From NCBI GenBank assembly GCA_017405805.1, contig JAFQZU010000018.1:1-64000 (forward strand): a DNA stretch of 64,000 nucleotides. The letters run 5' to 3'. The notes under the pieces are model-generated. The model was not told the DNA's origin. It searched no databases and saw only the letters and a list, made by a program, of their open reading frames with translations. The DNA comes from Lachnospiraceae bacterium. Lineage in GTDB: Bacteria > Bacillota > Clostridia > Lachnospirales > Lachnospiraceae. The position numbers and the translations under genes are program-made. Positions 5,832 through 19,693 of the stretch are shown one piece after another. How positions within the stretch are numbered: position 1 is the first letter of the stretch; the number at the start of each line of letters is the position of its first letter.

Positions 5832-6881
5832 ATGGCAAAGCGTATCACGATCGAAATGGTTGCCCAAAAAGCCGGTGTCTCGCGCGGTACGGTCGACCGT
5901 GTGATCAATCAAAGGCCTCATGTCCGCAAGGATCAGTATGACAAAGTCATGGAGGCGATAAGAGAACTTGGCTATATTCCTAAGAAGAGACAGGCGCAGG
6001 CATTGGGGATCGCTATAACTGAAAAGCCGGTCTGCCGTCTTGGTGTGGTCATGCCGACCCGCAATCCTTATTACATGAATGAGGTGAAGCAGGGGATTCA
6101 TGATGCGCAGGCACAGCTTGTGGATTATGGCGTGGAGATCATCACGGAGCAGATTTCCGCATCGCCTTACCCCGAGGAAATCGCGGAGCTGATGGAGCGG
6201 ATCATCGCGCGCGGAGCGGATGGAATGGCTATATGCGCCATGGACTGCGAGCAGGCCGCGAAGAAGATAGATCATCTGCAGGAACAGGGGGTTCCCGTTA
6301 TTACATTTGACTCGGATATACGAAGCGGCAGGATGCTTTTTTACGGGAATGATTCCTCAAAGACCGGGCGCGTGGCAGGTCAGCTGATGGCGAAATATGT
6401 GAAGCCTGACAGGCATATCATCGTCGGTGTGGGAAATAAAGAGATTCCCGGGCATATGTCCCGGGCCGACGCATTCATCGATACAATGAAAGCCGCCGGG
6501 TTTCCGGACCGGAACTTAATTCTCATTGAAACCTACGATGATTATACGCTGACCTATAAAAAAGTCCGGGAGGCACTGCTTGCTGACGGGGATATCGCGG
6601 GGATCTACATGGCGAGCCACAATCTGACAGGATGTATGGATGCGGTGCGCAGCACGGGGAAAGAAACTTCTCCGATCGTGATCTACACGGATATGAACGA
6701 GCGTGTGTACAGGTATCTCAAGAGCGGTGAACTGGCCTTTTGCGTTACGCCCAACATCTATATGATGGTATACAGGACACTGATCATTTTAAAAGAGTAC
6801 CTGATCGACCACAAAGTACCGCCGGCCAGAGAGATATTCACAGATATTCAGATTGTCTGCAAAGAGAATGCTGATGTTTAA
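5832..6881 (+). CDS. LacI-family transcriptional regulator (first paralogue)
   Basis: The N-terminus is a LacI-type HTH and hinge helix (residues 4-58, VAQKAGVSRGTVDRVINQRP). The remainder is a periplasmic-binding-protein fold of the Peripla_BP_4 type with LGVVMPTRNPYY, DGMAICAMD and VPVITFDSD, which binds a sugar-like effector. It is followed by a closely related paralogue and then an Mgl-type sugar transporter, so it most likely controls this island. A perfect dyad at its own promoter suggests autoregulation. The effector is unknown. Confidence 0.9.
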   Translation: MAKRITIEMVAQKAGVSRGTVDRVINQRPHVRKDQYDKVMEAIRELGYIPKKRQAQALGIAITEKPVCRLGVVMPTRNPYYMNEVKQGIHDAQAQLVDYGVEIITEQISASPYPEEIAELMERIIARGADGMAICAMDCEQAAKKIDHLQEQGVPVITFDSDIRSGRMLFYGNDSSKTGRVAGQLMAKYVKPDRHIIVGVGNKEIPGHMSRADAFIDTMKAAGFPDRNLILIETYDDYTLTYKKVREALLADGDIAGIYMASHNLTGCMDAVRSTGKETSPIVIYTDMNERVYRYLKSGELAFCVTPNIYMMVYRTLIILKEYLIDHKVPPAREIFTDIQIVCKENADV

Positions 6882-7143: not shown

Positions 7144-8172
7144 ATGGCAAGAGTAACAATCAATATGATTGCGGAACGGGCCGGTGTTTCAAGGGGAACT
7201 GTAGACAGGGTGCTTCACAACCGTCCCGAGGTGGCGCCTGAAGTTCGGGAACACGTACTGGAAGTGGCCAAGCTCATGGGGTATATTACCCCAAACCACG
7301 GACACAAAGATTCCTACGTGATCGGTGTGGTTCTTCCGGGGAACCGCTGGTTTGACGATAATCTGAAAAAAGAATGGATGAGCGGTGTGCAGGATGCCCG
7401 CGAAATTGTTGAGCCTCTCGGGTACCGCGTAGAGGTGGTGGAGTGTGATACGGATATACCGGGGGATATCGTAGAAGCGCTGGAAAATCTCAGAAAACAA
7501 AATCCGGCCGGAATTGCCATGACCGGAATGGACACGGACAACGTCAGGGCCTGCATCGACCGGTTTGAAGAGGACGGCGTTCCGGTCATCACATATAACA
7601 GCGATCTTCCCGGCAGCAAACGCACCTGTTTTATCGGCCCTGATCCTTATAAAAGCGGAAGAGTGGCAGCGAATATGATGTTCCGCCGGATCGGAAAGTC
7701 TGACCGGATACTGGCAGTAGCCGGCAATCTCGACTATTCGGCGCACCATGCAAGAATACGCGGCTTTATCGATGCATGCAAAGAAGCGGGTATATCCGAG
7801 AAACAGATTATTGTAAGAGAGAGTCACAACGAGTATATTCTTACCTACGATATTGTCAGTAAAGCGCTTTCCGAGATTCCGGAATTGAAGGCAGTCTACA
7901 TGGCAAACGAAAATATCGCAGCCTGCGCGGACGCTCTCGGGGATGAGCGGAATTCGCGCGAGATCATGATCGTGGGGAATGATCTCACACTGGTCACGAA
8001 AAAACTCCTGACGGAGGACAAAATCGATTTTATTGTGGAACAGAACGTATACTGGCAGGGCTATCAGCCGATCATTATGCTTAAAAAGCTGATCGATATG
8101 CCGAATTTCCCGGTCTCTGAGATGGCATTTACCAATATCGGCGTCGTCAATGCGGAGAGTATACGGCAGTGA
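7144..8172 (+). CDS. LacI-family transcriptional regulator (second paralogue)
   Basis: The 342-residue protein has the same architecture as its upstream neighbour, with HTH and hinge (IAERAGVSRGTVDRVLHNRP) and a Peripla_BP_4 effector domain (YVIGVVLPGNRWF, PAGIAMTGMD, VPVITYNSD). Recognition-helix residues SRGTVDRV are identical in the two, which fits their shared dyad operator. Its own terminator follows before the transporter genes. Two regulators with the same DNA motif but diverged effector pockets could integrate two ligands; this is inference. Confidence 0.9.
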   Translation: MARVTINMIAERAGVSRGTVDRVLHNRPEVAPEVREHVLEVAKLMGYITPNHGHKDSYVIGVVLPGNRWFDDNLKKEWMSGVQDAREIVEPLGYRVEVVECDTDIPGDIVEALENLRKQNPAGIAMTGMDTDNVRACIDRFEEDGVPVITYNSDLPGSKRTCFIGPDPYKSGRVAANMMFRRIGKSDRILAVAGNLDYSAHHARIRGFIDACKEAGISEKQIIVRESHNEYILTYDIVSKALSEIPELKAVYMANENIAACADALGDERNSREIMIVGNDLTLVTKKLLTEDKIDFIVEQNVYWQGYQPIIMLKKLIDMPNFPVSEMAFTNIGVVNAESIRQ

Positions 8173-8229: not shown

Positions 8230-8344
8230 TTTTTGCCAAAAATCGTCCCCCCTTTTCTGAAGATATCCCGTTTTTATATTCTGCCGGTTCTGTAAAAATG
8301 GTATGGATGCAATGGATGTTTTGCTGTCGGGAACGGGGGAAAAC

Positions 8345-9838
8345 ATGGAATACATACTGGAAATGAAGGATATCAGCAAGACCTTTCCCGGGGTCAGGGC
8401 GCTCGATCACGTACAGCTCCAGGTCAGGCCCGGAGAAGTACATGCGCTGATGGGGGAAAACGGCGCCGGAAAGTCTACGCTGATGAAGATCCTCATGGGA
8501 ATCTACACGAAAGATCAGGGAGGAGAGATCCTCTTTAACGGAGAGCCTTACAATGTCTCCAATCCCAAGGAGGCGATGGACAAGGGCGTTGCCATGATCC
8601 ATCAGGAGCTCAATCCCATCCTGGACATGACGGTGTATGAGAATATTTTTGTCGGGCGCGAGCTGAAAAAGAACGGGCTCGTCGACAAATACGCGGAGAT
8701 CGAAGAGGCGAAGAGGCTGATCGCGGAGTGCGGCCTGCACGTCGGTCCCACGGAACTTCTGCGCAACCTGACCGTAGCCCAGTGCCAGCTGATCGAGATC
8801 ATCAAGGCAATCTCGGTCAACGCAAAGGTCATCATCATGGACGAGCCCACGGCGGCGATCACGGACCGCGAAGTCGAACTGCTCTTCGGCCATATCCGCC
8901 GACTGAAGGAAAAGGGCGTGGCGATCATCTATATCTCGCACCGTATGGACGAGATCTTCACCATCTGCGACCGGATCAGCGTTTACCGCGACGGAACCTA
9001 CATCGGATCCGGGGATGCGAAGGACATGACCGAATCCCAGCTGATCAAGATGATGGTCGGACGCGAGATCACGGATGTCTTCCCGAAGGCGGAAGCGGAG
9101 ATCGGAGACGTCGTTTTTGAGGCGAAAAACATCGTGCGCGCCGACGGAAAGGTAAAAGACGTCAGCATCTGCGTGAGAAAAGGCGAGATCCTCGGCATTG
9201 GCGGCCTGGTCGGAGCCGGCCGGAGCGAACTTGTGGAAGGAATCTTCGGCATGCATAAGCTCTCCTCGGGAGAGATCGTCGTAAAGGGAAAGAAAGTCAT
9301 CGTGCATTCGCCCGCCGACATCATCAAAAAGGGCGTCGCACTGGTCACCGAGGACAGAAAGGTCACTGGTCTGAACCTTCGCGGGACAGTCAACGACAAT
9401 ATCGCCATGGTGGCGATCGGAAAACTCCTCGAACACGGTCTTTACAGCAAAAAGCTGGCGAGAAAGGCCTCGGACGAATATATTAAGAAGCTCAAGATCA
9501 AGACGCCCAGCGGGGACGAGATCGCCGGCAATCTTTCCGGCGGCAATCAGCAGAAGATCGTCATCGGGAAATGGCTTCTGAACGATCCGGACGTGATCAT
9601 TCTGGACGAGCCCACCCGCGGTATCGACGTAGGCGCAAAAAGAGACATCTACCTGCTGATCGGCCAGCTGGTGCAGCAGGGCAAGGCGGTCATCATGATC
9701 TCCTCGGAGATCCCGGAGCTGATGGGCGTCTGCGACCGGATCGCGGTCATGTCCGAGGGAAGGCTTTCGGGTGAGCTGACCCGCGGAGATTTCTCTCAGG
9801 AGAAAATCATGACGCTGGCGTCCGCCATTGAAGTGTAA
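8345..9838 (+). CDS. Sugar ABC transporter ATPase, MglA/RbsA type
   Basis: This is a full-length double ATPase of 497 residues. The first half has the Walker A GENGAGKST (about residue 39), Walker B VIIMDEPTAAI and ISHRMDEIF. The second half has the typical weaker P-loop GLVGAGRSE, then LSGGNQQKIVIGKW, VIILDEPTRGIDVGAKRD and MISSEIPEL. It powers uptake of a pentose, hexose or similar sugar through the permease encoded next. The start at 8345 was preferred over 8303 because the MEYILEM start matches the family. It is the intact counterpart of the decayed ATPase-like protein at 14491-15930. Confidence 0.95.
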   Translation: MEYILEMKDISKTFPGVRALDHVQLQVRPGEVHALMGENGAGKSTLMKILMGIYTKDQGGEILFNGEPYNVSNPKEAMDKGVAMIHQELNPILDMTVYENIFVGRELKKNGLVDKYAEIEEAKRLIAECGLHVGPTELLRNLTVAQCQLIEIIKAISVNAKVIIMDEPTAAITDREVELLFGHIRRLKEKGVAIIYISHRMDEIFTICDRISVYRDGTYIGSGDAKDMTESQLIKMMVGREITDVFPKAEAEIGDVVFEAKNIVRADGKVKDVSICVRKGEILGIGGLVGAGRSELVEGIFGMHKLSSGEIVVKGKKVIVHSPADIIKKGVALVTEDRKVTGLNLRGTVNDNIAMVAIGKLLEHGLYSKKLARKASDEYIKKLKIKTPSGDEIAGNLSGGNQQKIVIGKWLLNDPDVIILDEPTRGIDVGAKRDIYLLIGQLVQQGKAVIMISSEIPELMGVCDRIAVMSEGRLSGELTRGDFSQEKIMTLASAIEV

Positions 9839-9876
9839 ATCTGTACGGGGAAGATGTGAGCATTGAGGAGGAAGAG

Positions 9877-10824
9877 ATGAAACAGAACAAAAGCGTGAAG
9901 GCGCTGGTCAGCGAATACTTTATTTTTGTGATCTTTATCGTACTTGTGATCGGGCTGACGATCTTAAAGCCCAGTTTTATCACACCGGGGAACCTCGTGA
10001 ACATCCTGAAGCAGGCGTCTATCAACGGCATTCTTGCTTTCGGTATGATGTTCGTCATCATTTCGGGCGGATTTGATATGTCCGTCGGCTCCACGGTCGC
10101 TTTTTCCGGAATCCTGGCAGCCCTTCTGGGCCGCGGCGATAATCCGCTGATCTTTGCGCTGATCGTCGCCATGCTGGCCGGTCTTGCGGTCGGCATCGTC
10201 AACGGCGTAGGCGTCGCCGTCGGCGACCTGCCGCCTTTTATCATGACACTGGGCACCATGACGGCTGTGCGCGGCCTTGCCCTTTTAGTATCCAACGGCA
10301 AGCCCGTCATCGGCATGAGCGAGCAGTATAAAGCGATCGCCGCGGGGTCATTTCTGGGCATCCCCATGCTGGCCATCTTCCTTTTGATCATCATTGTCGT
10401 CTGCTCATTTGTACTCGCCAAAACAGTCTACGGCCGCAGGGTCTACGCCTGCGGCGGCAACCTGCAGGCAGCGAGGGTTGCGGGCATCAACACTACACTG
10501 ATCCGCATCTCCACTTTTGCGATCGCCGGCTTTCTGGCAGGCCTGAGCGGGTTCCTGATGACCTCCCGCGTCACCATCGGACAGCCCACGGCGGCAGAGA
10601 GCTATGAGATGGACGCCATCACCGCATGCGTCGTGGGCGGCGTTTCCATGACCGGCGGCGTCGGCAAGCCCTGGGGCGTTGTAGTCGGTACGCTCCTCAT
10701 TACGGTCATTGCGAACGGTCTGGATATCTTGGGCGTGTCCTCTCATTGGCAGAAGATCGTCAAAGGTCTGATCATCGTCATTGCGGTCCTGATCGACGTC
10801 AAGGGCAAGAGCAAAAAGGACTGA
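9877..10824 (+). CDS. Sugar ABC transporter permease, MglC/RbsC type
   Basis: The protein is almost entirely hydrophobic with eight to ten membrane segments and carries the family motifs FDMSVGSTVAFSG and PWGVVVGTLLITVIANGLDILGVSS. It forms the channel of the importer with the ATPase upstream and the binding protein downstream. The ATG at 9877 has GAGGAGGAAG at good spacing; an in-frame GTG at 9856 would add seven acidic residues and overlap that site. The gap to the ATPase gene is 38 bp. Confidence 0.93.
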   Translation: MKQNKSVKALVSEYFIFVIFIVLVIGLTILKPSFITPGNLVNILKQASINGILAFGMMFVIISGGFDMSVGSTVAFSGILAALLGRGDNPLIFALIVAMLAGLAVGIVNGVGVAVGDLPPFIMTLGTMTAVRGLALLVSNGKPVIGMSEQYKAIAAGSFLGIPMLAIFLLIIIVVCSFVLAKTVYGRRVYACGGNLQAARVAGINTTLIRISTFAIAGFLAGLSGFLMTSRVTIGQPTAAESYEMDAITACVVGGVSMTGGVGKPWGVVVGTLLITVIANGLDILGVSSHWQKIVKGLIIVIAVLIDVKGKSKKD

Positions 10825-10894
10825 TCCTTTTCGGGATCATTTTGGAAACGGTACCTGTAATATTTTTAAATATATGGCAAGGAGGAAAAGGTAT

Positions 10895-11911
10895 ATGAAA
10901 AAGAAAATGTTGGCAATCCTGATGACAGGAGTGCTGGCGGCAGCAGTCCTGACCGGCTGCGGCGGCAGCTCTTCCGCAAGCTCCACGGATTCTTCCGACA
11001 GCGCCGCAGAGGCGACGGAGGAGACCGCTGAGGAGACCGCAGACACAGCGGCAGAGCCGGCTGGCGGCACCTACAAGATCGCTCTGATCCAGCAGCATCA
11101 GACCAACGCGTTCCAGATCGGCGTCTCCGAGGCAGCACAGGCAAAGGCTGACGAGCTGGGCGTTGAGCTCACCATTCTCAGTGCGGACCAGGATGCAGCC
11201 AAGCAGATCAGCCAGATCGAGCAATGCGTGTCCGAGGGCTATCAGGCAATCCTGTTTGAGCCCGTGGATCCCGACGGACTTGGCGACGCCGCACAGGCGG
11301 CAGCGGACAAGGGCGTGATCGTGATCAACGTGATCTCCCCCTGCACAGACTGGGAGAACCACGGCATTTCCGCTCTTTCCTGCGGTGACAACGTAACCGC
11401 CGGCGAGACCGAGATGCAGCACGTCGCTGACCTTCTGGGCGGCAAGGGCAACATCGCTATCCTGACGGGCCCCTCCGGTGACGCAGGCGGTCTGCAGAGA
11501 CTGGAAGGCTACGAGAACATCCTCAAGAACTATCCCGACATGGTCCAGGTCGTGGAGCCCGCTGACTGCCAGTGGGATACCGCTACTGCACAGGGCACGG
11601 TCGAGAGCTGGCTCTCCGCTTACGATCTTGACGCGATCGTCTGCGAGAACGACGGCATGGCAGTCGGCGCAGGCAATGCAGCAGGCGCTAACAGCGGCAT
11701 CGTGATCACCGGCGTTGACGGCACGCCCGACGGCTTCGAAGCGATCGTCGACGGCAGAATCACCGGCACAGTTTCCCAGGACGGCGGCGCTATGGCAGCA
11801 AACGGCATCGAGGCCGCTGTGAAGCTGATCAACGGCGAGCAGCTTGAGAACAACACCATCATCACGACCAATATCTGGATCGACGCCAACAACGTTGCTG
11901 ATTATCAGTAA
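10895..11911 (+). CDS. Sugar-binding lipoprotein of the ABC transporter
   Basis: A lipoprotein signal ends in LTGC with the lipidated Cys at residue 22. An Ala/Thr/Glu-rich spacer follows, and then a Peripla_BP_4 sugar-binding domain from about residue 55 (TYKIALIQQHQTNAFQIGV, ILFEPVDPDGL, AILTGPSGDAGG, VICENDGMAVGAG). It captures the substrate outside the cell and delivers it to the permease. AAGGAGG lies upstream of the chosen ATG. Codon choice is strongly C-ending compared with neighbours, as in a highly expressed gene. The specific sugar cannot be told from sequence alone. Confidence 0.94.
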   Translation: MKKKMLAILMTGVLAAAVLTGCGGSSSASSTDSSDSAAEATEETAEETADTAAEPAGGTYKIALIQQHQTNAFQIGVSEAAQAKADELGVELTILSADQDAAKQISQIEQCVSEGYQAILFEPVDPDGLGDAAQAAADKGVIVINVISPCTDWENHGISALSCGDNVTAGETEMQHVADLLGGKGNIAILTGPSGDAGGLQRLEGYENILKNYPDMVQVVEPADCQWDTATAQGTVESWLSAYDLDAIVCENDGMAVGAGNAAGANSGIVITGVDGTPDGFEAIVDGRITGTVSQDGGAMAANGIEAAVKLINGEQLENNTIITTNIWIDANNVADYQ

Positions 11912-12054: not shown

Positions 12055-13638
12055 ATGCTGAGAGCCGTTCTGGCAGATGACGAGACAAAAGTCATTTATT
12101 TGCTTGAAAAACTGATCGACTGGGAAAAGATGGGCTTTGAGATCACCGGCGTGGCGAGCGACGGACTGCAGGCGCTGCAGCTGGTGGAGGAGACACAGCC
12201 CCACCTTCTTGTGACGGACATCCGGATGCCGGGGTGCAGCGGTCTGGAGCTGGTAAAGCGGGCAAAGGCGCTGCAGCCGGGTCTTCACTGCATCATCATC
12301 AGCGGCTACCGGGAATTTGAGTACGCCCAGAGCGCCATCAAATACGGCGTGGAGGACTATCTGTTAAAACCGCTCAAAAAGGATGAACTGACCGCGATCC
12401 TGATGCGTCTGCGGGACAAACTCGGGGAGGAGGAGCGGATCGAGTACCGCCAGGAAAAGGACAGGGTGAAGCGCCAGGAGCTTCTGATCGAGGCACTCTA
12501 TAAAAGCGCGGGGCAAAAGATCCCCTTTGCGGGGCGGGAGCAGGTCAACGAGGAGTACGGGTTTCATTATAGCGAAGGAATCTGCTGCGCCGCGATCGTG
12601 AGACCGGATGTATCCGAGGCGGACAGACACCGGGAAGCTTACCGGATCCTTCTGCAGCACGCGCTGGACATCGTGCGCAGGGAACTTCGAAACATAGGCA
12701 GCGAAGCGGCTGTTTCTGTCCTCAGGGAGGGAATCGCCGCCGTCATCGGCGTGAATTCCTACGATCCCGTGGAGATGCGGCAGTGCTTTACCAAGATCCG
12801 GAAGGAGATCGAAAAACAGCGGGATCTGTTCTGGGATATCCGCGTCTTTGTGTCCGTGGGCAGCAGGGGGGAATCCATGCAGATGCTCTCCCGTTCGCTC
12901 TCGGAGGCGCTGTGGCTCAGTGCCGACCGGATCTGTTCGGATGCCGCGGTGCGCGACGCTGAGACGGAGACGATCCCCCTGGAGAACCACTATCAGATGG
13001 ATGTGGCGATGCGAAAGCGCTTCAGGGATGCGGCGGAGCTCCTGGACGAGGCGCAGTTCCGCCGCGTGCTCAAGGAGAGCGGCGAGGAACTTCGGGGAAG
13101 GGGCGGCCTCCACGGCATGATGGTCCGCGAGTGGTTCTACGAAGTGGTCCGCGCCTGTATATACGGCATGGAGCAGAGCGGCACCGTGGAATCTTCCTGC
13201 GAGGCGGAGCTGATGGACAGCTTCTGGTACTGCAGGAGTCTGGACGAGATCTATGCACTTTTGGAGCGGAAGATCCTCGAAAAACTGACCCATATGCGGG
13301 AGGAGCGGTCCCTGCAGGAGAACCGGCCCATTGCACAGGCGAAAGAGTACATTCTCGCCCACTACAGTGAGGCCCTGCGCCTCGAGGATGTCAGCGCGGC
13401 CGCAGGCTTCAATGCCACCTACTTCTCCACCTTCTTCAAAAAAGAGACAGGCCTCAGCTTTACCGACTATCTGGGGCAGGTGCGGATCACAAAGGCCAAG
13501 GAACTCCTTTTGCGCGACGAGTTTTCGGTGATGGATGTCTGCGAGGCGGTCGGCTACAAGGACCTCAAGTATTTTTCGCGGCTCTTTAAAAAAGTGACCG
13601 GCATCAGTCCCTCGGACTACAGAAAGCTCTACCGCTAA
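12055..13638 (+). CDS. Response regulator with AraC-type DNA-binding domain
   Basis: The N-terminal receiver domain has the acidic pair D8-D9, the phosphoacceptor D55 in VTDIRMPG and K105-type lysine in LLKPLK. A long central region (about 130-400) of the kind found in YesN-type regulators follows, then two AraC HTH motifs at about 425-525 (LRLEDVSAAAGFNATYFS and MDVCEAVGYKDLKYFSRLF). It is the output of the kinase encoded 13 bp downstream. Its likely target is the transporter operon just upstream. AGGGAGAG precedes the ATG. Confidence 0.93.
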   Translation: MLRAVLADDETKVIYLLEKLIDWEKMGFEITGVASDGLQALQLVEETQPHLLVTDIRMPGCSGLELVKRAKALQPGLHCIIISGYREFEYAQSAIKYGVEDYLLKPLKKDELTAILMRLRDKLGEEERIEYRQEKDRVKRQELLIEALYKSAGQKIPFAGREQVNEEYGFHYSEGICCAAIVRPDVSEADRHREAYRILLQHALDIVRRELRNIGSEAAVSVLREGIAAVIGVNSYDPVEMRQCFTKIRKEIEKQRDLFWDIRVFVSVGSRGESMQMLSRSLSEALWLSADRICSDAAVRDAETETIPLENHYQMDVAMRKRFRDAAELLDEAQFRRVLKESGEELRGRGGLHGMMVREWFYEVVRACIYGMEQSGTVESSCEAELMDSFWYCRSLDEIYALLERKILEKLTHMREERSLQENRPIAQAKEYILAHYSEALRLEDVSAAAGFNATYFSTFFKKETGLSFTDYLGQVRITKAKELLLRDEFSVMDVCEAVGYKDLKYFSRLFKKVTGISPSDYRKLYR

Positions 13639-13651
13639 AGGAGGAAGTTCC

Positions 13652-14479
13652 ATGTGGCTGCGCACCCTGTTCAGACTCCGGCGGGCGCTCGGGCGCTACA
13701 GCACGGAGAGAGATATCAGAAGAATACTGAACGACGACTGGTCGGATGATCCGCTTCTGGAGAATTTTTTCGCCGACCTGCGGAGGCGGCTCTACGGAGA
13801 GGAGCAGCAGCGGCTGCAGCAGAAGCAGGCGGAGTATATGGCGCTGCAGAATCAGATCAATCCGCACTTTCTCTACAACAGTCTGGAGGCCATCCGGGCG
13901 GACGCGCTCATGGCGGACTGCGAGGAGATCGCAGAGACGACGGAGGCCCTGGGAACCTTCTTTCGCTACACGATCTCCAACCTGCAGCAGTATGTCACCT
14001 TCTCGGATGAGCTGGATAATGTAGAGAACTATTTTACCGTGCAGAAATCCCGCTTCGGCGACAAAATATCCATGGAAGTCGAGATGGAGAACGAGGCGCT
14101 TCTGGAAGCCCGCATGCCCAAGCTCATCCTGCAGCCGCTGGTGGAAAACGCCATCGTGCACGGGCTGGAGGGAAAGATCGGGGGCGGCACCGTGCGGATC
14201 GTGATCGAAAACAGCGACCGTACGCTTTTCCTCCGGGTACGCGACGACGGTATGGGGATCCCCGAGGAGGAGGTCGAGAGGCTGAACCGGCGGTTTTCCA
14301 TGGAGGATCCGGGACCCGCCGATTCCGGGGGAAGACGGGGCGGGATCGCCCTGGTCAACGTCAACAGCCGGATCCGCCTGATGTTCGGCGAGGATTACGG
14401 TCTCAAGATCTACAGCATGCCGGGGATAGGAACGGAGTGCTGTCTGACCCTGCCGCTTTTGTATGAAATGCCTGCCTGA
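13652..14479 (+). CDS. Sensor-less LytS/YesM-type histidine kinase
   Basis: Only the catalytic half of a YesM-type kinase is present in 275 residues. The phosphoacceptor box LQNQINPHFLYNSL has His72, the N box is LILQPLVENAIVHG and the G boxes are DDGMGIP and GGIALVNVNSR. Family members usually have about 300 more N-terminal residues with two membrane helices, an extracellular domain and HAMP. Here residues 1-50 are basic and soluble with no membrane segment. The start has AAAGGAGG, and the upstream gene ends 13 bp before it, so there is no room for a missing sensor. The input must come from a partner, and the next gene is the obvious candidate. Confidence 0.92.
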   Translation: MWLRTLFRLRRALGRYSTERDIRRILNDDWSDDPLLENFFADLRRRLYGEEQQRLQQKQAEYMALQNQINPHFLYNSLEAIRADALMADCEEIAETTEALGTFFRYTISNLQQYVTFSDELDNVENYFTVQKSRFGDKISMEVEMENEALLEARMPKLILQPLVENAIVHGLEGKIGGGTVRIVIENSDRTLFLRVRDDGMGIPEEEVERLNRRFSMEDPGPADSGGRRGGIALVNVNSRIRLMFGEDYGLKIYSMPGIGTECCLTLPLLYEMPA

Positions 14480-14490
14480 GGAAGTGACGC

Positions 14491-15930
14491 ATGATCGAGG
14501 AACTGGTCCGGATCGAAAACGGAAGCTTTAAAAATGACGGGAGCTTTTATCTGTTCGATATGTCTGTTTCCCGCGGGGAGTGCGTCGGCGTATACACTAA
14601 CGACCACAGGACCTCCGGGACGGCGTATATGGGCATTTTTGGCGGCCAGACTGACCTGGTCGGCGGCAAGGCTTTCTGCTGCGGGGTCCGGAGCGGTTAC
14701 CCCGAGACGCGGCGGTGGATCCGCGCCAATACTATGATCATCGACCGGCGCCGCTTTGCCTCCCGGGAACTGACGGCCACGGATTATCTGCTCGCCATCG
14801 GCGCGGGGAGAGGCGCCCTGGACAAAAAAGACGACGTCCTGCTGTCGCGGGAAGCGCTGGACATGAAGGAAAAGATGGGCATCACCTTTCCCTGGAGCGC
14901 GCATCTGACCGCCCTTTCCATGCTGGATTACTACAGACTCGCAGCCTATAAGGCGTGGCTTCTGCAGTGCAGGATCATCGTGCTCGACCGGATCACGGAG
15001 ATCCTGCGCAGGCAGGATCTCCATGCCTTCATGGACTGCGTTCTTGTCCTGCAGGGGCAGGGCGCGGGCGTTTTTTTGCTGGATATGGATGAAAATTTCA
15101 TCTTCCGGTATGCGAACCGCATCGACGTACTGAAAAACCGACGCACCTGCTACCACCTGTATCCGGAGGAATACGGGGAACGTCTCTACGACATACTCGG
15201 GTGGGAGAAAAAAGACAGTTCCTGGGGAAGCGCCGCGGACAGCGGCGGGCAGCGGGAAGCCGGTGCCCCGAATGCGGTCCTTGTGCTGGAAAAGCTCCGT
15301 TTTGACGGACTCTCCCCGATGACCTTCTCGATCGGCAGCGGGGAGATCGGTTTTTTGCAGGACGAGAACTATCGCACGGCCTCCTGCATACGCAGCTGCG
15401 TCCTGGGAGACCTTGACTGGACCGAAGGGAGTCTCCAGCTCGATCAAAAAACGCTTACGCCCCGCGAGCTGCGGGCGGAGGTGGGGCACGGGGTCGCCGT
15501 GCAGATCGAGATGCCGGACCGGTCGGGCGGCGTTCTTTTTGACAATCTCACGGCGCTGGAGAATCTCAGCATCGTCCTCATTCCCAAGGCAGGAAAGCAT
15601 TTCGTGCACAAAAATCTCACGGAGAGCATCCTGGACCGCGCCGCGGAGTGGTTCGACAGGGACCGGCTCCTGTCGCCGATCCGCAAGTGGTCCCTGCCGG
15701 AAAGGCTTCAGCTGTCCTACCTGAAGTGGTATCTGCTCAATCCAAAGCTCCTGATCTGCCTCTTCCCTTTTTCCGGGCAGGAGTCCATCCATCACGAGAT
15801 GATCATCAATATGCTGGTGCGCTGCGCCCGGCGCGGGATGGCAGTGTGGATCATCTCCTCCGGTATCGACGAGATCTGCGAGAAGACGGCAAATGAAGAA
15901 TTCCTGAAGAGACTGCGCTACCTCGCCTGA
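14491..15930 (+). CDS. Degenerate MglA-like ABC protein (pseudo-ATPase)
   Basis: The 479 residues follow the two-half plan of MglA, but each nucleotide motif is lost. In half one the P-loop is replaced by GVYTNDHRTSGT, the signature region reads LTALSMLDYYRLAAYKAW, the Walker B region is RIIVLDRITEI with the catalytic Glu gone, and the H-loop is LLDMDENFI. In half two GSGEIGFLQDEN replaces the P-loop, LPERLQLSYLKWYLL replaces LSGGNQQK and LLICLFPFSGQE replaces LDEPTRG, while VWIISSGIDEI keeps the last strand. The reading frame is intact and it sits 11 bp after the sensor-less kinase, so it is under selection but unlikely to hydrolyse ATP. It may dock on the permease and report to the kinase; this is inference. 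Confidence 0.8.
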   Translation: MIEELVRIENGSFKNDGSFYLFDMSVSRGECVGVYTNDHRTSGTAYMGIFGGQTDLVGGKAFCCGVRSGYPETRRWIRANTMIIDRRRFASRELTATDYLLAIGAGRGALDKKDDVLLSREALDMKEKMGITFPWSAHLTALSMLDYYRLAAYKAWLLQCRIIVLDRITEILRRQDLHAFMDCVLVLQGQGAGVFLLDMDENFIFRYANRIDVLKNRRTCYHLYPEEYGERLYDILGWEKKDSSWGSAADSGGQREAGAPNAVLVLEKLRFDGLSPMTFSIGSGEIGFLQDENYRTASCIRSCVLGDLDWTEGSLQLDQKTLTPRELRAEVGHGVAVQIEMPDRSGGVLFDNLTALENLSIVLIPKAGKHFVHKNLTESILDRAAEWFDRDRLLSPIRKWSLPERLQLSYLKWYLLNPKLLICLFPFSGQESIHHEMIINMLVRCARRGMAVWIISSGIDEICEKTANEEFLKRLRYLA

Positions 15931-16069
15931 AAATCCGGCCGGAAGAACGCCGCGGATCCGTTTAGACAAAACGCGTTTCCTCTGTTAATATGGTTCTGGA
16001 GAGAAATCGTTTCGGATAATACCCGTAATATCCGTAATACCTGGCTTGGGATGTGGAGAGGAGAAAAAA

Positions 16070-16699
16070 ATGGATGCCAATATTACAAAGCGTTATGAAC
16101 TTCTTTCGAAGAAAGTGATCAAAGGACTTAAGTCCCGCAATATGGACGGTTATTATGCCGCGACCAAAGAGGAGGCCCTTAAGACGGCACTCTCCCTGAT
16201 CCCGGAGGGAAGCAGCGTCACGATGGGCGGCGCCATGAGCGCCCACGAGATCGGCCTGGTGGAGGCCCTCAAAAAGGGCAGCTACAATTTCATTGACCGC
16301 GACGCCATGGAAGACAAGCGGGCGGCGATGCTTGCGGCCTATGACGCGGACGTCTTCCTTTCAAGTGTCAACGCCATGACGGAGGACGGGATCCTGGTCA
16401 ACATCGACGGCAACGCGAACCGCGTCTCGGCCATCGCACAGGGACCGAAGAAGGTCATCTTCATCGTCGGCGTCAACAAGATCTGCGACGACGTGGACGG
16501 CGCCATGAAGCGCGCCAGAAATGTGGCGGCCCCGATCAACGCACAGCGTTTCGGGCTGGACACGCCCTGCTGCAAGACGGGCGCCTGCATGGACTGCAAG
16601 TCGCCGGATACCATCTGCTGCCAGTTCCTGATCACAAGATATTCCAAGCATCCGGGCCGGATCCATGTGATCCTGGTTAATGACAGCCTGGGATTTTGA
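16070..16699 (+). CDS. LUD-domain (LutC-like) protein
   Basis: The 209-residue product is one LUD domain (formerly DUF162), with SSVTMGGAMSAHEIGLVEAL, DVFLSSVNAMTEDGILVNIDG and KVIFIVGVNKI. The C-terminus is rich in cysteine (CCKTGACMDC and CC), which could bind a metal or Fe-S cluster. LutC partners in lactate oxidation, but single LUD proteins like this one are common in Clostridia and their role is unclear. GGAGAGGAG precedes the ATG. It is followed by a strong terminator. Confidence 0.88.
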   Translation: MDANITKRYELLSKKVIKGLKSRNMDGYYAATKEEALKTALSLIPEGSSVTMGGAMSAHEIGLVEALKKGSYNFIDRDAMEDKRAAMLAAYDADVFLSSVNAMTEDGILVNIDGNANRVSAIAQGPKKVIFIVGVNKICDDVDGAMKRARNVAAPINAQRFGLDTPCCKTGACMDCKSPDTICCQFLITRYSKHPGRIHVILVNDSLGF

Positions 16700-17138: not shown

Positions 17139-19544
17139 TCAATGCGCAACCCCATACGCGTCCAGCGTCTTCATGACGCCCTTATACATGACGGACCGGC
17201 TGGTCACCATAGCCCCGTCGGAACCGAGGTAGTAGAGGCTGCCGCCGATCGTCTGCCAACCGGTCAGCATGAAGCCGGTACCGGAGAAGTAATACCATTT
17301 TCCGCCGATCTGCTGCCAGCCGGTCAGGCCGGCGCCGTCGGCGCCAAGGTAGGCCCACTTGCCGCCGGCAAAGACCCAGCCGTTTTTTTGCATGGCGCCG
17401 CTGCCGTCCAGATAGTACCGCTTCCCACCGGTCAGGAGCCACCCCGTTTGCATGGCGCCTGTCTTCGGGCTGAGGTAGTACCACGTGCCGTCGATCTGCC
17501 GCCAGCCTCTCTGCATGACCCCGTACCCGTCAAAAAAGTACCACCTCCCGCCTGTCGCCTGCCATCCTTTCTGCATGATGCCTTTATTGTTGGTAAAGTA
17601 GTAATCGGATCCGACGCGCTGCAGGCCGCGCAGGGTCACGCCGCCGTCCCCGAAGAGATACCAGTTTGTGACGCCGCTGCGCGTGAGCTGCTGCCAGCCC
17701 GTCGCGGAGGTGCCGTCGTCGTAGATGTAGACGTAGTCGTAATCATCCTCGCCCCGCTGCCATTTTTTCCAGCCGGAACTCATGCGCGCTTTCCAAGGAG
17801 TCGGAGCAGCGGAGAGTTTTCCGTCGCTGCCATAGGTGACATAACGTATGCCTTGCCCGGAAAAATCAGCCGTCAGCGAAAGCTGCTGTTCCGATGTGCG
17901 GTAGACGGGGATATTTTTGCCGCGCAGATATTCATTGAAGGGCACGTCGTCCTCATAATAATTGCCCCTTCGGTTGGTGGTGGTGACCACGGCGGAGGGA
18001 GCGAGCCGCTCCAGCGTGTCAAAACTGGTACTCTCCTCATACCCGTGGTGGCCGGCCTTGTACAGATCCACCGTGCCGTAGTCAGCGGCGACGGCGTCTG
18101 TCATGCGCGTCTCAAGTCCCTCGTTTACCTCAACATCCGCGGTCAGAAGAGCAGTCCGGTCCCCCTTCGCCACGGCGGTCACGATGCTGTTGAGATTCTC
18201 ATTCTCCGAGGAATTGTGGTAGAGGTTGTACAGCGCCAGGGAAAAATCACCCAGCTTGAAGCGGATGCTGTCGCTGACGGGGTCGCTGCCGCCTTTTTTG
18301 AAGGAGGCACCGGCTTTTTGAAGGGCCGACGCGGCGTGACTGCTCGTCTCGACCATAATGGCGCCCCGGCCTCGCATGGCGCTCACTGCTTCATTGAACA
18401 TGCGGGTGTTCTGCCAGCCCCATTTGCCCTCCTCCTGCGCGTTGTAGTAATACTGCTTGTAGAAGAAGACGGTTTTCTGGTCGATCAGCTTCCTGCCGGC
18501 TGCACCCGCGGCCTGCGCCAGAAATTTCATGCCGCCGATGTGGTCCGAATGGCTGTGAGTGGCCACGACAAAATCGAGATGGCCGACGCCCGTTCTTTTC
18601 AGGTAACTGATCACGTCGTCGACATTCGCGGTCGTGCGGTTCAGAGCGGGATCGGGATCCCATGCCGGGTGCGAGGCGTCGATCAGGCCGTAGCGGCCGT
18701 TGCTCTGGACCAGGATGGAATCGCTGGCAGCGTACAGGTCATTGAGTGTCAAAAAATGGATCCTGTCCACCTTGCGTAGTTTTTGCGCTTCGATCTGCTC
18801 CGGGGTGAGGGATTTGACCGCGTAGAAGGTCCTGCCGTCAGAGGCCGTCTTTCGGGTCACTTTTTTATACTGGAATGCGTTGCCGGATGCGGCCGAGGAG
18901 ATCCTGACGGTCTTTGTGACAGGTTCCTTTGAAACAGATCCCTGCGCAGCGGCGCCGGAATCCGTGATCGCAGCCGTTGCTCCCGCCTCCGCGGGGGCGG
19001 CTGCCCGGATGAGAGGTTCTGCCGTGTCGGATTCGGGAAGGATCGCCTCGGATTCAACGGAGATCAACTCGGATTCGGTGGGAATCGCCTCAGTTTCCGC
19101 CTCGGCGGAAAGCGCCTCTGCCTCCGGCTCGGCGGGGATCGCTTCAGTCACTGCTTCAGCGGAAAGTGCCGCAGTCTCTGCCTCAGGAGGGATCGCCTCA
19201 GTCTCCGCCTCAGTGAGAGTCGCCTCAGTTTCCGCCTCGGAGGGGATTGCCTCAGCCTCCGGCTCGGCGGGGATCGCTTCAGTCACTGCTTCGACCGGGA
19301 TATTTTCCGCTTCAGCAGGGATATCCTCCTGCACATCGGAGAATTCCTCTGCTTGGGCAGGAATCGCCTCTGACACCGTCCCGGCGGCAGGATCTGCATC
19401 CGCCTCGCCCGCCTCAGGAGCGGGAATCGCTTCCGCCTCGGCGGCCTGTGCAGTCAGTACGGCAGGCGCGTCAGGCATGGCTGCAGCGGGGGAGAGGGAG
19501 AAAAAAAGAGCGGCGATAACGCCGAGAAAGCATTTTTTCGTCAT
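17139..19544 (-). CDS. Secreted MBL-fold protein with cell-wall-binding repeats
   Basis: After a signal peptide (start at 19544) come about 160 residues of E-A-I-P/A-E-A repeats. A ComEC-like metallo-beta-lactamase domain follows, with the metal motif THSHSDHIGGMKF, TADVEVNEG and the KAGHHGYEES motif. From about residue 590 to the end there are nine or so GWQ..GGKWYYF-type repeats of the choline/cell-wall-binding class. The enzyme should be attached to the wall surface, cutting a phosphodiester or related bond. A start at 19646 would put 34 residues before the signal peptide and is unlikely. Confidence 0.88.
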   Translation of the reverse strand: MTKKCFLGVIAALFFSLSPAAAMPDAPAVLTAQAAEAEAIPAPEAGEADADPAAGTVSEAIPAQAEEFSDVQEDIPAEAENIPVEAVTEAIPAEPEAEAIPSEAETEATLTEAETEAIPPEAETAALSAEAVTEAIPAEPEAEALSAEAETEAIPTESELISVESEAILPESDTAEPLIRAAAPAEAGATAAITDSGAAAQGSVSKEPVTKTVRISSAASGNAFQYKKVTRKTASDGRTFYAVKSLTPEQIEAQKLRKVDRIHFLTLNDLYAASDSILVQSNGRYGLIDASHPAWDPDPALNRTTANVDDVISYLKRTGVGHLDFVVATHSHSDHIGGMKFLAQAAGAAGRKLIDQKTVFFYKQYYYNAQEEGKWGWQNTRMFNEAVSAMRGRGAIMVETSSHAASALQKAGASFKKGGSDPVSDSIRFKLGDFSLALYNLYHNSSENENLNSIVTAVAKGDRTALLTADVEVNEGLETRMTDAVAADYGTVDLYKAGHHGYEESTSFDTLERLAPSAVVTTTNRRGNYYEDDVPFNEYLRGKNIPVYRTSEQQLSLTADFSGQGIRYVTYGSDGKLSAAPTPWKARMSSGWKKWQRGEDDYDYVYIYDDGTSATGWQQLTRSGVTNWYLFGDGGVTLRGLQRVGSDYYFTNNKGIMQKGWQATGGRWYFFDGYGVMQRGWRQIDGTWYYLSPKTGAMQTGWLLTGGKRYYLDGSGAMQKNGWVFAGGKWAYLGADGAGLTGWQQIGGKWYYFSGTGFMLTGWQTIGGSLYYLGSDGAMVTSRSVMYKGVMKTLDAYGVAH

Positions 19545-19693
19545 GAGGAATCCTTTCGGGCTGTTTGAACAGAAATCAGGACAGTGCGGGGATAAGTCTG
19601 TTATACTGCTACTATACCATAGGAAATACAGCCAAAGGAATAACAAAGAGGCACAGGCAGTTTGCTAAACTGATGAAAGGAGTGCTGCAGGGT

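Follow-up and report, generated by a model that had tools for sequence, protein, structure and literature searches.

A pseudo-ABC-ATPase related to MglA as a candidate input subunit of short YesM/LytS-type histidine kinases

The present work concerns a stretch of 64,000 nucleotides (the window) from a Lachnospiraceae bacterium (contig JAFQZU010000018.1), in which a response regulator (RR) and a histidine kinase (HK) are followed by a gene for a protein of 479 residues, here named pABC for pseudo-ABC-ATPase (ABC, ATP-binding cassette). Judged by its sequence profile, pABC is a relative of MglA, the ATPase of Mgl-type sugar importers. Regulator, kinase and pABC form a conserved unit, as gene order and homology indicate, and the window belongs to it; an arrangement that recurs in dozens of loci is not the product of chance. 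The genomic evidence that links pABC to the kinase is strong, and pABC is most likely the input of that kinase. The explanation that we favor, and hold to be on balance probable, is that pABC is a retired MglA-type ATPase which has become a dedicated kinase input, and which sits on an MglC-type permease and relays the state of the permease to the HK.

Results

A degenerate ABC gene accompanies the short kinases

With pABC alone as the query, 4 of 62 genomes in the genus and 6 of 299 in the family had the protein (the window's own genome counted in both). At all eight other loci obtained from the pABC search the regulator gene comes first, then the kinase and then pABC, and Mgl-type genes are close by. 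A search of the genome contigs with a single protein gave no match; an alignment of nine kinases did retrieve relatives, and the best 80 of 593 were examined, every one of them. A degenerate ABC gene stood downstream of all 20 kinase frames shorter than 420 residues and of none of the 60 longer ones. The degenerate-ABC profile used for these 80 loci was built from the 49 pABCs of the final collection themselves, the separate check being the table of their motifs; one locus (L035) is counted in this test only, and in another (L090) the kinase frame was chosen by overlap alone. The first-pass annotation of the window had named, as the outcome that would speak against its proposal, a failure of pABC homologues to co-occur with such kinases, and this outcome did not arise. 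The other adverse outcome that it had named, the lack of an ABC fold, was examined at the level of sequence profiles.

Wider sampling gave the same association. A kinase search across an order yielded matches at E <= 1e-50 in 178 of 392 genomes, and among the matches listed, the frames shorter than 420 residues score 2.4e-75 or better, except one in genome G467 (2.7e-60), whose kinase is not a member of the clade and lacks a pABC. The 24 best further sites were fetched from this listing. One candidate for the clade, the 368-residue kinase of locus L184, was rejected, as it scores far below the clade and is accompanied by neither pABC nor Mgl genes; being short yet devoid of pABC, it indicates that short length alone does not predict the presence of pABC.

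The final collection comprises 49 distinct loci (51 short-kinase rows minus the duplicates L022, equal to L016, and L136, equal to L028). Nine of them were found via pABC, where pairing is by construction, and 40 via the kinase, and in all 40 of the latter the kinase is paired with a pABC. Two of the pairs (L023 and L027) escaped the distance rule and were recognized on manual inspection, the pABC of L027 lying 1.2 kb downstream of its kinase. A phylum sample of 398 genomes contained seven kinase matches at E <= 1e-75, the window's genome included, and the other six all adjoin a pABC. When a class sample was searched with the pABC profile, at least 14 of 391 genomes (own genome included) contained a match, a lower bound since four candidates per genome were scored at E <= 1e-100, and 12 of the 13 others had a kinase of this type directly upstream; one genome (G851) is counted in both the phylum and the class samples.

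The unit is spread over many family codes of the window's phylum and occurs in one genome bin labeled Treponema (L033). The labels Betaproteobacteria (L023) and Holosporaceae (L038) likewise belong to genome bins, which are possibly misbinned. One genome (G099) codes for five kinases of the clade, each with its own pABC (L028/L136, L135, L141, L146 and L153), and another (G143) for two. The five pairs suggest that copies of the module accumulate within a genome and may come to differ in the sugar that they serve.

An MglA relative without catalytic motifs

The six genes that run from the transporter to pABC all lie on one strand, at the coordinates and in the frames originally assigned to them:

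8303..9838, + strand: intact MglA-type sugar importer ATPase with two nucleotide-binding domains (NBDs); Pfam ABC_tran 1.7e-49; NCBIfam XylG-, MglA- and AraG-type models at E 6e-167 or better; motifs GENGAGKST, DEPT and LSGGNQQK all kept
9856..10824, + strand: MglC/AraH-type permease (BPD_transp_2); Pfam 7.7e-44; NCBIfam AraH 1.1e-76, under the model's cut-off
10874..11911, + strand: sugar-binding protein (SBP; Peripla_BP_4, RbsB-like) with a lipoprotein-like start (by eye); Pfam 5.8e-53; NCBIfam RbsB 5.4e-33, under the model's cut-off
12055..13638, + strand: YesN-like RR (receiver and AraC-type HTH); Pfam Response_reg 2e-24, HTH_18 3.4e-22
13652..14479, + strand: YesM/LytS-type HK; Pfam His_kinase PF06580 1.9e-24, HATPase_c 7e-14; no hydrophobic segment
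14491..15930, + strand: pABC, a two-NBD MglA homologue without catalytic motifs and proposed kinase input subunit; weak NCBIfam matches; hhalign probability against MglA 99.1

The kinase and regulator follow the YesM/LytS and YesN plan in their Pfam domains (PF06580 with HATPase_c, and a receiver–AraC regulator, respectively), and the RR precedes HK and pABC, with an intact MglA/MglC/SBP importer just upstream, as had been described.

Pfam ABC_tran does not match the window pABC; it matches seven of nine scanned homologues, the best at 1.3e-19. The NCBIfam matches of the window protein (YtfR 1.3e-13, AraG 2.6e-10) are weak and fall far under the cut-offs of those models, and the Pfam and NCBIfam searches made returned no family dedicated to pABC. 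Its ancestry emerges from profile comparisons. The hhalign comparison set the window pABC and its four nearest relatives, which share 43-59% identity with it, against eight MglA proteins and aligned 425 columns at E 6e-19, and when a profile of 30 pABC homologues was compared with the PDB, the best matches listed were ABC proteins (top E 5e-31). Together these matches identify pABC as a relative of MglA, with two ABC NBDs in one chain as far as sequence profiles can tell.

The 479-residue protein is an intact frame with the two-half MglA plan, in agreement with the first-pass annotation, and against the adjoining intact MglA its P-loops, signatures, Walker B glutamates and H-loop are all replaced, the aspartate of the first Walker B being kept. 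The losses extend through the family: the SGG of the second signature is missing from all 49 pABCs, Asp-Glu occurs in the first Walker B of three and in the second of none, and four keep the H-loop histidine. By comparison, the 39 neighboring MglA proteins listed (those with at least 34% identity to a reference MglA) have both first Walker motifs, A and B, and an SGGN signature in place; those of L018, L138 and L154 deviate in the second Walker A or B. Within pABC, the columns conserved in MglA are retained less where they belong to the nucleotide motifs (50 columns, mean 0.22) than elsewhere (80 columns, mean 0.36; p 0.006). The pABC family thus looks dead as an ATPase.

The loss of motifs is not accompanied by decay of the gene. 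The ratio of nonsynonymous to synonymous substitution rates (dN/dS) for pABC is 0.16-0.27 between the window and three near relatives and 0.14 in the nearest other pair, and pABC is therefore under purifying selection, so that the idea of a pseudogene was discarded, and the earlier view of an ABC homologue retained in spite of its missing catalytic motifs was borne out. For the companion genes, dN/dS is 0.21 for the regulator (one pair) and, in the window pairs, 0.11-0.16 for the kinase and 0.06-0.10 for MglA; pairs with L016 have saturated synonymous sites and hence no ratio. That pABC is a decaying duplicate without a role, to which its vanished motifs and its branches, longer than those of MglA, might point, is barely credible: the frames are open, dN/dS stays at 0.14-0.27, the pairing holds across many family codes and a fusion with the kinase exists, and selection and pairing already contradict the idea.

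A kinase fused to a pseudo-NBD, and the history of the pair

At locus L155 (8418-10268, - strand), a kinase carries a single pseudo-NBD at its C terminus (residues 400-613), which matches the N-terminal half of pABC; it scores 96.9 bits among the open reading frames of its locus and 1.7e-23 by blastp to L040. Because it is long and had been grouped with the long kinases, this protein had been taken for a long, sensor-bearing kinase without pABC, an assignment abandoned once the fusion was seen. The same fusion, at 87% identity, occurs in genome G1065, the second of the 17 species of that genus to show it (L185 6475-8313, + strand), with MglA, MglC, SBP and a ROK-like gene (by eye) upstream. 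The regulators at the two fusion loci are shorter (253 and 285 residues), and a ROK-like gene, again by eye, lies between the regulator and the Mgl genes.

The fusion suggests physical contact between pABC and kinase. It also bears on a different role, in which pABC would inhibit or store the kinase and be titrated by the idle or busy permease. MalK holds MalT in such a manner. The gene data are the same for this switch as for the relay favored here, and an adaptor shared by permease and kinase would fit either sign of control; a permanent fusion of HK and pseudo-NBD in two species is, however, hard to square with the release of pABC, and we regard a sequestration switch as improbable.

In a tree of kinase cores, the short HKs form one clade (SH-aLRT 97) with the window HK inside and L155 as the one long kinase within it. 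In a second tree, pABC and MglA fall on opposite sides of one branch with support of 100. Both trees are quick searches with support from the Shimodaira-Hasegawa-like approximate likelihood ratio test (SH-aLRT) only, and the kinase-core tree took 48 of 49 short and 40 of 44 long kinases, the remaining one short and four long lacking the motif used to cut the core. The pABC tree does not exclude several separate origins of pABC from MglA; the kinase tree is the better witness, because the pABC branches are long, and if one leans on it the pairing of short kinase and pABC appears to have one origin. HK and pABC distances are correlated across 35 loci (r 0.87, and 0.72 once MglA is removed).

Membrane part of the kinase

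Hydrophobic segments were sought by a Kyte-Doolittle hydropathy scan of the stretch before the phosphorylated histidine. Out of the 49 kinases, 35 have at least two segments, four have one long stretch, three have one segment (L023, L039 and L140) and seven have none (the window, L013-L016, L153 and L041, the last being a broken frame in its genome bin), so that one or more N-terminal hydrophobic segments occur in 42 of the 49. Two such segments without a sensor domain are the state of most relatives; the region ahead of the histidine is too short for a usual extracellular one.

The window HK, with its catalytic domains and without membrane or sensor part, is as originally characterized. A membrane part missed on its 5' side was excluded, as the HK starts 13 bases after the stop of the RR, which leaves no room for a sensor. 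The absence of membrane segments as a general rule for kinases with pABC, which the first-pass annotation had implied, was not sustained, as it applies to the window clade and to L153. In the window clade it is most simply a derived state, given that most relatives have N-terminal segments. The absence in L153 is real, since its regulator ends right before its kinase, and L153 sits elsewhere in the kinase tree. Most simply, then, the segments would have been lost twice with pABC kept each time, which points to pABC as the kinase input.

Association with the Mgl-type transporter

One rule was applied to all loci, namely MglC and SBP on the same strand within 9 kb. By this rule the two genes are near pABC in 43 of the 49 loci, and in 36 of the 38 where at least 7 kb is available on both sides; near long kinases they occur in 10 of 43 loci (9 of 35 under the same flank requirement), L155 being left out. 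The expectation that pABC homologues neighbor a kinase without membrane helices together with an Mgl-type transporter therefore stood for the kinase itself and, in most loci, for the transporter, and fell for the membrane-free state.

At four loci the genes hint most strongly that pABC works on a permease. L017 and L034 have a permease and an SBP with no intact MglA in the region, and in L150 (5846-6763) and L037 (12164-13072) an extra BPD_transp_2 permease gene lies directly behind pABC; that of L037 overlaps the pABC gene, lacks residues that most others share and looks decayed.

The two-NBD plan and the nearness to MglC would also suit a pABC that plugs MglC as an inactive ATPase and so regulates transport, the kinase genes being mere neighbors. 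The pairing with the kinase (40 of 40 kinase-found loci) is tighter than that with the transporter, and the fusion is to a kinase, which makes a role in transport alone very improbable.

Neighboring genes of the window

Two LacI-type regulators with Peripla_BP_4 ligand domains (5832-6881 and 7144-8172) stand in tandem just 5' of MglA, so that LacI-type and two-component control may both act on the transporter. Behind pABC lies a LUD-domain protein (16046-16699; Pfam 3.6e-51), which has no counterpart among the open reading frames retained from the eight related loci. Further on, 17139-19646 (- strand) codes for a protein that looks secreted and combines a metallo-beta-lactamase-like HSHSDH motif with choline-binding-type Trp/Gly-rich repeats at its C terminus (by eye).

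Discussion

In the relay that we propose, pABC keeps the two-NBD plan and lacks the residues for ATP hydrolysis. Since its plan is that of MglA, its simplest seat would be the cytoplasmic face of the MglC dimer, where it may replace the working MglA or exchange with it; such docking is suggested by ancestry and gene context. There it would read the state of the permease, be it the engagement of a sugar-loaded SBP or running transport, and pass this state to the kinase dimer, which would phosphorylate the AraC-type regulator, and the regulator would probably adjust the adjacent transporter and sugar-use genes. Both the kind of signal and the make-up of the regulon are guesses. One pABC would supply two pseudo-NBDs per kinase dimer, the same number as a dimer of the L155 fusion. 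In the window clade, whose kinases have no hydrophobic segments, pABC is the sole visible input.

Several observations weigh against this relay. The Walker A lysine is present in 20 of the 49 pABCs and GK[ST] in seven, so that some of them may still bind nucleotide, the P-loop of the window protein being gone. Genome G1017 has an orphan pABC (L170 8615-10069) between aminoacyl-tRNA-synthetase-like and peptidase-like genes (by eye), and its only close match to this kinase type (L174 6005-7015) lies apart from it and stands directly before MglA, MglC and SBP, as if the pABC had moved away from its kinase. The correlation of pABC and MglA distances is still 0.57 over the 35 loci once the kinase is removed. 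The ten long-kinase loci near an Mgl transporter indicate that this neighborhood is not special to pABC, and six of the 49 pABC loci have no same-strand Mgl transporter within 9 kb. In four of the six (L038, L140, L142 and L153) the contig stops short on one side or both; L143 and L152 lack a same-strand transporter despite 7 kb or more of sequence to each side, L152 having a permease on the other strand. Further MglA genes in the genome of L017, moreover, could supply an ATPase to the permease of that locus.

The retained lysines, the few loci without a nearby transporter and the kinases of the window clade and L153, with no hydrophobic segment, would also fit a pABC that is a kinase input sensing a cytoplasmic ligand, such as a sugar phosphate or a nucleotide, in altered nucleotide pockets and with no contact to a permease. 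Little is newly conserved across the family at the old pocket positions, however (by inspection), and Mgl permease and SBP genes near 43 loci, a hydrophobic segment in 42 of the 49 kinases and the extra permease genes right behind pABC in L037 and L150 all speak against it, so that we consider such a cytoplasmic sensor unlikely, if less so than the sequestration switch.

A bolder extension of the relay, to which we give somewhat less than even chances, is a class of bacterial nutrient sensors derived from dead ABC importers, whereby SBP, Mgl-type permease and pseudo-ATPase would make up a non-transporting receptor and the pseudo-ATPase pair would drive the HK dimer.

Parts of the unit have parallels in known systems. 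XylFII-LytS/YesN combines a YesM/LytS-type kinase and a YesN-type regulator beside an Mgl-type importer, and its extracellular binding protein informs the kinase through the membrane part of the latter. The window unit shares the type of kinase and regulator and the Mgl-type neighbor; the window HK, however, shows no membrane segment for that route of contact. In UhpC-UhpB a transporter homologue serves as the sensor of the kinase, yet UhpC is a complete membrane carrier and belongs to a different superfamily, whereas only the ATPase subunit would have been converted in the window unit. Bce-type kinases have two membrane helices and no extracellular sensor, and BceS is without a known sensor domain. 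By hydropathy the window HK has no such helices, and its neighboring permease is of the BPD_transp_2 type, MglC/AraH-like, in place of a BceAB-type transporter. In its working, the BceAB-BceS/BceR system is nonetheless the nearest to the window unit, as an ABC transporter informs the kinase, and for the Bacillus subtilis system passages of PMC10314905 propose that BceS senses BceAB as it passes through its conformational cycle. The signal there comes from the working transporter itself, whereas the window unit has a separate, seemingly dead ATPase, an Mgl-type importer and a PF06580-type kinase. The linker of the phosphate system, PhoU, is not known to be an ABC ATPase homologue and in this differs from pABC. 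Through it the PstSCAB importer informs the kinase PhoR, PhoU contacting the ATPase PstB, according to passages of PMC6978683. The ATPases MglA, RbsA and AraG share the two-NBD plan and ancestry with pABC, and are set apart by the SGG noted above and by the aligned Asp-Glu-Pro of Walker B, which is absent from all 49 pABCs.

Full-text searches of a PMC library, in which most subscription papers and all bioRxiv preprints are missing, returned no title or abstract opening that describes such a unit. To our knowledge, no dedicated pseudo-ABC-ATPase is known as the input of a histidine kinase, and none figures in BceAB-S, PstSCAB-PhoU, XylFII-LytS, UhpC-UhpB or MalK-MalT.

Conclusions

If importers have indeed given rise to sensors in this way, L017 and L034, with no MglA nearby, and L037, with its decayed-looking permease overlapping pABC, would be the clearest non-transporting receptors, and in the window clade the pseudo-ATPase alone would carry the signal to a soluble kinase. 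For kinases without a sensor domain, pABC offers a defined candidate subunit through which they might learn of nutrients.

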